Shown here piece by piece: positions 1,614 through 6,558 of a DNA stretch of 45,734 nucleotides (position 1 is its first letter; each line of letters opens with the position of its first letter). The translations under genes and the position numbers were made by a program. Under the pieces are notes generated by a model. It was not told where the DNA came from and ran no database searches. It was given only the letters and a program-made list of their open reading frames with translations. Origin of the DNA: a virus; IMG/VR virus record IMGVR_UViG_3300025728_000016, positions 1-45,734 of that record; one strand, given 5' to 3'.

Positions 1614-1642
1614 AATATAGGAGTACCCATATTTCATGTCAA
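1614..1642 (-). promoter_or_regulatory. Leftward early promoter PL
   Basis: On the minus strand TTGACA (1642-1637) and TATATT (1619-1614) are separated by exactly 17 bases, an almost perfect sigma-70 promoter. Both hexamers overlap repressor-type operators, so transcription leftward should be silent in the lysogen. Confidence 0.8.
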
Positions 1643-4890: not shown

Positions 4891-5556
4891 TCACAGCTTC
4901 ATAAGCGCACGAACCACGACTCCGATGATTCGACAGTCGTCCTCGCACGTCTCCATCGGGTAGGCGGGGTTCAGGGGCTTGAGGAATCGCCGACCGCCGT
5001 CGTCGACCAACTTCTTAAACGTGGCCTTGTCGCTGTTTGACAGCTTCGCAATCACCAGCTTGCCGGAATAAGCGTCCGCCTCAGTGTCCACCAGGATCAG
5101 GCTGCCCTCGGGCACACTCTGACCAACCGGCGATGTCATCGAGTCGCCTTTGACCTCAAGCCAGAACGCCGGCCCCTTAGAATTGTAGTCGGACATCTCG
5201 TAGTGGTCAGAAAAGCCAGGAGGGTAGGGCTCAACTGCTTCGGCCCAAGCGCCGGCGGCGACCCATGAAATGACCGGATACCGGAACATCATGTTGGGCT
5301 GGTCTGCCATGGCCACGTTCGCGGGCTCATCACCTTGTGAAGTTGCGCGGCGAACCATTTCACCCTTGCCATCTGAAAGCCAAAGGGCATCGACGCCACA
5401 AACGCTCGCGATTTTCGCAACATGAGCGGTGGCCTTGGATTTGCCCCTTTCGAGATCGGAAATCGACGTCTGCGTGATCCCGGCTCGTTGAGCCAGCTCA
5501 GCCTGGTTGAGATTTGCGTGTCGACGGGCGGCTTTTAAGCGGTCTTTAAATTCCAT
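4891..5556 (-). CDS. CI-like repressor, HTH plus S24 peptidase
   Basis: The 221-residue protein has an XRE helix-turn-helix (AELAQRAGITQTSISDLERG, about 19-38) and a C-terminal S24 autoprotease: cleavage-type pair A101-G102 (WVAAGAW), nucleophile S139 (GDSM) and K171 (KLVIAKL). It should hold the prophage silent and self-cleave when RecA is activated. The start is at 5556; the predicted PRM -10 lies 7 bases ahead of the ATG, so the mRNA is probably leaderless as for lambda cI. Five matching operators flank its immunity arm. The frame is open further upstream, but that part runs into the operators and cro. Confidence 0.95.
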   Translation of the reverse strand: MEFKDRLKAARRHANLNQAELAQRAGITQTSISDLERGKSKATAHVAKIASVCGVDALWLSDGKGEMVRRATSQGDEPANVAMADQPNMMFRYPVISWVAAGAWAEAVEPYPPGFSDHYEMSDYNSKGPAFWLEVKGDSMTSPVGQSVPEGSLILVDTEADAYSGKLVIAKLSNSDKATFKKLVDDGGRRFLKPLNPAYPMETCEDDCRIIGVVVRALMKL

Positions 5557-5563
5557 CCGCCGA

Positions 5564-5592
5564 GTATTACGGGTGCTCCCATATCCTTGCAA
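5564..5592 (-). promoter_or_regulatory. Repressor maintenance promoter PRM
   Basis: Minus strand TTGCAA (5592-5587) and TAATAC (5569-5564) are 17 bases apart. Only seven bases separate the -10 from the repressor ATG, so transcription would begin at or next to the start codon. Confidence 0.65.
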
Positions 5593-5631
5593 ATCGGCAT
5601 TCCCATAATCTACTATATGGGTATTCCCGTA
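5568..5631. promoter_or_regulatory. Right operators OR (three sites)
   Basis: TACGGGTGCTCCCATA (5568-5583), AATCGGCATTCCCATA (5592-5607) and TATGGGTATTCCCGTA (5616-5631) start exactly 24 bp apart. The cro-proximal site overlaps the PR -10 and transcription start; the repressor-proximal site overlaps the PRM -10; the middle site has one degenerate half. The arrangement is that of lambda OR1-OR3. Confidence 0.85.
5587..5616 (+). promoter_or_regulatory. Rightward early promoter PR
   Basis: TTGCAA (5587-5592) and TACTAT (5611-5616) with an 18-base spacer drive cro. The -35 hexamer is self-complementary and is the same six bases used by PRM on the other strand. Confidence 0.65.
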
Positions 5632-5643
5632 TGGAGGGGCGAT

Positions 5644-5859
5644 ATGAACACTATTTTCCAGGACCTCGTCACCTTCTTCGGGACGCAGGAAACCACCGCC
5701 GAAAAGCTCAAGGTTGATCAAAGCACCGTCTCTGGCTGGGTTCGTGGCAAGCACGGGATGTCTCCGATTGTTGCGAAGCGGGCAGAGGCGCTGACCCAGG
5801 GTGAGTTCAAGAAAGAGACCCTGTGCCCATCGTTCCCATGGGCCGAGATGGCGGCTTAG
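5644..5859 (+). CDS. Cro/YdaS-like regulator
   Basis: The 71-residue protein begins MNTIFQDLVTFFGTQETT, followed by a helix-turn-helix (AEKLKVDQSTVSGWVRGKHG) and ends LCPSFPWAEMAA. This is the Cro/YdaS-type architecture seen opposite S24 repressors in gamma-proteobacterial phages. It follows PR with ATGGAGGGGCGAT ahead of the ATG. It probably binds the same operators and shuts off repressor synthesis during lytic growth. Confidence 0.88.
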   Translation: MNTIFQDLVTFFGTQETTAEKLKVDQSTVSGWVRGKHGMSPIVAKRAEALTQGEFKKETLCPSFPWAEMAA

Positions 5860-6135: not shown

Positions 6136-6558
6136 ATGGAAGACTTTCTGGATGCGTGCCAGTCGGCGGTGAAGGGCAACGAGCCCAAAGCACTGGCCGC
6201 AAAGATGGGTGTTCCGCACGTGAGTCTGCTGCAACGCGCGAACCCGGACAACGACGCCCACCACCTGACCATCGAGCATCTGTACGGCGTGCTGCTGCAC
6301 ACCGGCGACATGCGCCCTCTGGTTGCGCTGGCATCCGAGTTCGGTTTCGACCTGGTTGCTCGCGATAAGCCGAAACCGACTGATCTGAACTCGGCGCTGA
6401 TGCGCCTGCACGTTGACCTGGCTGACGTCACTCGCTTGGCCCACGACGCCCAAGCGGACGGGCATGTGTGCTCGCGTGAGAAATCGGAACTGATCAAGGA
6501 AGCCGACGAGGTGATCGTCAGCCTGGAAGTGTTCAAGCAGTCCGTAAAGGTCGCCTGA
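6136..6558 (+). CDS. Phage CII-family regulator
   Basis: The 140-residue protein fits the phage regulatory CII (CP76-type) family: an N-terminal DNA-binding helical region with AVKGNEPKALAAKMGVPHVSLLQRANP, then HHLTIEHLYGVLLHTGDMRPLVALASEFGF and a C-terminal coiled segment. It lies downstream of cro as lambda cII does and would act in the lysis-lysogeny choice. The ATG at 6136 has ACGAGG eight bases upstream. Confidence 0.85.
   Translation: MEDFLDACQSAVKGNEPKALAAKMGVPHVSLLQRANPDNDAHHLTIEHLYGVLLHTGDMRPLVALASEFGFDLVARDKPKPTDLNSALMRLHVDLADVTRLAHDAQADGHVCSREKSELIKEADEVIVSLEVFKQSVKVA

Follow-up and report, generated by a model that had tools for sequence, protein, structure and literature searches.

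A probable shared palindromic -35 hexamer for PR and PRM in the right operator region of a D3-type lambdoid phage

Described switches and the D3-type immunity region

The right operator region (OR) of phage lambda holds three operators at 23-24 bp, the PRM transcript begins at the cI AUG, and the divergent promoters PR and PRM have two separate -35 hexamers that lie 12 bp apart. Interference between the lambda PR and PRM promoters has been the subject of published work. The opposing PRM and PR promoters of P22 are closer together than those of lambda, and their annotated cores overlap by 16 bp; the cores interleave but have distinct -35 hexamers, none of which is shared. By protein comparison, the nearest characterised relative of the repressor described below is the CI of phage 434 (46.6% identity over the full length), but in 434 the PR promoter has a TTGACA to itself and TTGCAA is absent. 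Divergent promoters placed on the same boxes have been proposed for the Pc/Pr conjugation switch of pLS20, a plasmid of a Gram-positive host, where the regulator represses one promoter and activates the other; the authors of that study favour an arrangement in which the -35 of one promoter is the -10 of the other (PMC4207663). Unlike pLS20 and P22, the D3-type phages would use one palindromic hexamer as the -35 of both promoters.

The viral record analysed here (the window) is 45,734 bases long, and the closest annotated relatives are the Pseudomonas phages PseuP_222, F10, D3, PMG1, PP9W2, VB_EV13 and JBD44. In D3 (NC_002484.2), F10, PMG1, JBD44 and PseuP_222 the cI and cro genes are likewise divergent, the operators are 24 bp apart and TTGCAA is found in the same place; in this group the cI -10 ends 6 nt before the ATG and the left operator (OL) lies to the left of cI. 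D3 aligns with the window at 73% DNA identity over 84% of a 501-bp query, and the operators align, although those of D3 are of the ATGAG type. The operator array is not new. The D3 RefSeq record already annotates three putative operators 24 bp apart in the same place, with an equal distance to cI, together with pE, and thus the 24-bp array is a known feature of D3-type phages; PR, PRM and a shared -35 are not annotated in that record. In the literature searched, whose coverage did not extend to the original D3 papers, no mention of a -35 shared in this way by D3-type phages came up, so that an earlier description is possible; nor did that literature yield transcription starts, footprints or reporter results for this phage or for D3.

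The gene content of the window is that of a lambda-type immunity region. The cI-type repressor gene (4892-5556, minus strand) encodes a 221 aa protein with an N-terminal helix-turn-helix (Pfam HTH_3, E 1.5e-12) and a C-terminal S24 peptidase domain (Peptidase_S24, E 1.1e-26), which matches the solved structures of the lambda and 434 repressors. Divergent from it is cro (5644-5859, plus strand), which by homology encodes a small helix-turn-helix protein of 71 aa that shares 83% identity with its PseuP_222 counterpart and 70% with D3 Cro and is assigned to PHROG 35 (transcriptional repressor, E 7e-14); it is preceded by a ribosome binding site, GGAGGGG (5633-5639, plus strand), that is kept among relatives. 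The Pfam label for the Cro protein is YdaS_toxin (E 9e-8), a name that is probably misleading for a D3-type Cro. Downstream of cro is the gene for a CII-like regulator (6136-6558, plus strand; Pfam Phage_CP76, E 2.4e-24; PHROG 101, CII-like activator), a member of the CP76 family and not of the D3/lambda CII family. Three operators lie in the cI-cro gap and OL lies at the leftward early promoter. With cI and cro homologous to those of D3 and the three operators in the D3 positions, the site, as read from sequence, is a D3-type lambdoid OR and belongs to a D3-related Pseudomonas phage. A 60 kb contig (L010, IMGVR_UViG_3300009036_000245) encodes a repressor 100% identical to that of the window and has an identical cI-cro region; it probably represents this phage, or a very near relative, on a longer contig.

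Operators and predicted promoters

The three 16-bp operators of OR follow each other at 24 bp from start to start: OR3 is TACGGGTGCTCCCATA at 5568-5583, OR2 is AATCGGCATTCCCATA at 5592-5607 and OR1 is TATGGGTATTCCCGTA at 5616-5631, none with an assigned strand. The array is flanked by the cI ATG (5556, minus strand) and the cro ATG (5644, plus strand). The position equivalent to OR3 is an annotated operator in D3, OR2 shares one base with the -35 hexamer described below, and OR1 spans the predicted PR start. A search of the whole window with TATGGGTATTCCCATA, allowing at most 3 mismatches, returned 7 matches compared with 0.03 expected in shuffles, and all 7 fall on the three OR sites or on 1616 or 1641. 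The sites and spacing given in the first-pass annotation are thus present in the sequence far above chance, and its description of the region as a lambda-like OR with about 24-bp spacing is supported.

The matches at 1616 and 1641 correspond to the two operators of OL (1616-1631 and 1641-1656, again unstranded), which are 25 bp apart and have 1 mismatch each to TAYGGGNNNNCCCRTA. Between them lies a predicted PL promoter, TTGACA-17-TATATT (1614-1642, minus strand), with 11/12 consensus matches, the only promoter found within 1400-1900. An equivalent, unannotated operator pair is carried by D3 to the left of cI, also 25 bp apart (L146, 6989-7029). PL, which stands alone, has TTGACA instead of TTGCAA, and we count this in favour of a -35 shared by PR and PRM.

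The candidate shared -35 is the self-complementary hexamer TTGCAA at 5587-5592, which would be read on the minus strand for PRM and on the plus strand for PR. The predicted PR -10 is TACTAT (5611-5616, plus strand; spacer 18), of which positions 1, 2 and 6 (T, A and T) are nearly invariant among relatives. The predicted PRM -10 is AATACT (5563-5568, minus strand; spacer 18), which ends 6 nt before the cI ATG. The first-pass annotation had given PRM a spacer of 17 and a -10 ending 7 bases before the ATG, one base off, while its PR spacer of 18 stands. That earlier -10, TAATAC (5564-5569), has 3/6 matches to TATAAT with the final T missing, and was replaced by AATACT, which is the better match (4/6) and fits the position found in relatives: GATAAT in D3 (spacer 18) and TATAAA in Halomonas prophages (spacer 17) likewise stop 6 nt short of the cI ATG. 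Both -10s of the window match the consensus at 4/6, both with A2 and T6, so that one hexamer has a -10 within a 16-19 bp spacer on each strand.

Because AATACT ends 6 nt before the cI ATG, the predicted PRM start coincides with the A of this ATG (5556, minus strand) and the transcript would be leaderless; PR is predicted to start near 5623 on the plus strand, 67 bp away. The leaderless repressor mRNA of the first-pass annotation is retained as a prediction, although it does not set the phage apart from lambda, in which the PRM -10 and the cI start are arranged in a similar way and the cI ATG likewise lies at the PRM start. In the Phage CBW1004C-Prop1 region (L009, 760-850), the distance between TTGCAA and the likely cI start is 30 nt; the repressor start given in that record is upstream, across the operators, and looks wrong. 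A generic consensus promoter scan of the OR region flagged neither PR nor PRM, because TTGCAA combined with either -10 gives only 8/12 consensus matches. Since both promoters are weak by this measure, the case for them rests on conservation and not on consensus strength.

Conservation of TTGCAA and competing explanations

We compared 88 distinct cI-cro regions from phages, viral contigs and bacterial genomes, using a tree built from coding columns, with a total length of about 7, on which parsimony changes were counted for each intergenic column. L053, L055, L056, L095 and L096, which have a different operator-promoter layout, were left out of the tree. Among the 88 relatives, TTGCAA has 1 inferred change over its 6 columns, or 0.17 per column. 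The corresponding rates are 9.8 at third codon positions, 13.7 in six cI leader bases, 6.7 in the gap before TTGCAA, 15 in the gap between OR2 and the PR -10, and 1.1-2.5 in the operators (1.8 in OR3); the PRM -10 has 1.3. Positions 4-5 of the hexamer (CA) are off-consensus for either strand taken by itself but preserve the TTG of the opposite strand, and they are equally fixed, as expected if both strands are read. The sole altered hexamer, TGGCAA, is that of L091 (P. fluorescens HK44), where the cro start is apparently GTG.

Further loci were collected with the proteins of phiAH14a, which are more distant, as queries. Among the 48 loci seeded with cro, 45 have TTGCAA at the same position, together with operators of other sequences, and the hexamer is retained with at least five operator types (TAYGGG, ATGAG, TATAGG, AAAGG and ATAAG). 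It is also retained in the operator-swapped regions L013, L150 and L153. In L013/L150 and L153 the C-terminal part of the repressor is window-like (L150 is 81% identical overall) while the helix-turn-helix and the operators are different, the latter of the ATAAG type, and the DNA-binding end and the operators appear to have been exchanged together. In five regions recovered through the phiAH14a repressor (L230, L231, L232, L235 and L242), TTGCAA stands close to an unrelated operator by coincidence, in four of them as ATGCAATTGCAAA; these regions were excluded, together with the truncated L099. We also rejected the possibility that TTGCAA is a piece of the operator repeat: it adjoins OR2 and no other operator, and it is retained when the operators differ. 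Since TTGCAA is constant while the operators vary, it lies outside the operator code; judged by these alignments, it marks an invariant position in an architecture whose repressor code has changed.

The geometry around the hexamer is similarly constant in 17 non-redundant regions. OR3 starts 19 bp before TTGCAA in 17/17, and OR2 starts 5 bp after the first base of TTGCAA in all except the two D3-type regions, for which the automatic palindrome score chose one base earlier while the D3 annotation gives 24 bp; the spacing between OR2 and OR1 is mostly 23 or 24. Under a strict -10 test (at least 4/6 matches with the key A and T, scanned over offsets 6 to 29), -10s were found at spacers 17-18 on the PR side in 14/17 regions and on the PRM side in 11/17, compared with at most 2/17 at any other offset, a positional signal part of which could be produced by fixed operator spacing, since the -10s touch the operator edges. 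The test was passed on both sides by 9/17 regions, whereas 0.2 were expected and no more than 3 were seen in any of 2000 shuffles, which preserved base composition only; the 17 regions themselves share ancestry. In each of the 17, the cI start lies 6-8 nt beyond the end of the PRM -10. Weak one-sided -10s also exist, such as TACCGT for PR in D3 and TAACTT for PRM in phiAH14a.

This conservation makes it likely that PR and PRM share the palindromic -35 TTGCAA in the D3-type lambdoid switch, as the first-pass annotation had proposed from one sequence; the comparative data are far stronger than that single case. What the sharing does is less certain. There is nearly an even chance that the hexamer is shared without special effect, close opposing promoters excluding each other anyway and the compact layout being kept by descent. 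This explanation concerns effect and not anatomy, and is compatible with most of our preferred reading. In its favour are the overlapping PRM and PR cores annotated in P22 and the relatives with a separate PR -35, which show sharing to be dispensable. Three cro loci (L286, L287 and L297) are without TTGCAA in the 100 bp upstream of cro and have a separate PR, TTGACT-17-TATTAT (spacing read from sequence); in Acinetobacter phage A785.1 a separate TTGACA is present. Such relatives show that sharing is not required and serve as natural controls. In L286 and L287 the former TTGCAA position is occupied by TTGCGCAA. Against the absence of a special effect, the near-zero substitutions over the length of the tree indicate strong selection on the hexamer itself; however, dual use alone would cause such selection, which leaves this explanation standing.

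It is unlikely that TTGCAA is the -35 of PR only, with a PRM that has no real -35 and needs CI at OR2, and with the palindrome alone accounting for the match on the opposite strand. Lambdoid PRM promoters are commonly weak and CI-dependent, and the PRM -10 of the window matches the consensus at just 4/6. Hexamer positions 4-5 would in that case be free to become AC, however, which they never do in the 88 sequences, and in divergent phages the -10s on the PRM side cluster at spacers 17-18 and at 6-8 nt from the ATG. Less probable still, and indeed very doubtful, is that TTGCAA is kept not as a -35 but as a protein-binding site (for a host factor, or as an extended CI or Cro contact), since the hexamer, although more conserved than the operators and with conservation that reaches TTGCAAA, is absent beside OR1, OR3 and OL and persists while operators change, and no known factor with such a site was identified.

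Proposed mechanism and significance of the shared hexamer

If PR and PRM share TTGCAA as their -35, sigma region 4 would occupy the hexamer in one orientation at a time, and polymerase would start from only one of the two promoters. Because a single hexamer has no room for sigma region 4 in both orientations, polymerase should choose between them; the mutual exclusion without repressor claimed by the first-pass annotation is in this sense inferred from promoter geometry. Bound at OR1 and OR2, CI would lie over the -10 and start of PR and stand beside the shared -35, and from OR2 it could activate PRM as lambda CI does. The calculated distance from the OR2 centre to the outer edge of the PRM -35 is 7.5 bp compared with 7 bp in lambda, which makes a contact between CI and sigma at the shared hexamer plausible. 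At OR3, either protein, CI or Cro, would lie over the PRM spacer and so turn PRM off. That CI and Cro bind common operators, with CI at OR2 activating PRM, is a prediction with which the geometry agrees. PP_3896, a lambda-like repressor encoded by a Pseudomonas putida prophage, is reported to activate its own promoter in vivo (PMC12894663). Compared here simply as a lambda-like repressor, PP_3896 fits the behaviour expected of PRM.

The first-pass annotation described a switch design different from that of lambda. This is true of lambda itself, with its two spaced -35s, but not of lambdoid phages generally, given the interleaved cores of P22; because the annotated PR and PRM of P22 overlap even more, a shared -35 is no departure from all lambdoid phages. 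The operator array was already known, and the probable shared -35 adds a good new detail to an already familiar kind of switch. It has a practical use, in that TTGCAA in the gap between OR3 and OR2, 29-31 nt from the cI start, is a simple mark for finding and annotating D3-type immunity regions with any operator sequence.

We suggest tentatively, and regard as rather more likely wrong than right, that a large D3-related temperate group has kept a palindromic -35 through operator changes, that PR and PRM compete for one sigma contact, and that the decision between lysis and lysogeny would be an exclusive choice of polymerase orientation made before CI or Cro acts. In lambda it is hard to separate the shares of repressor and of promoter interference in the bistability of the switch. 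A natural family with a shared element, together with relatives whose promoters are separated, would offer a direct comparison.
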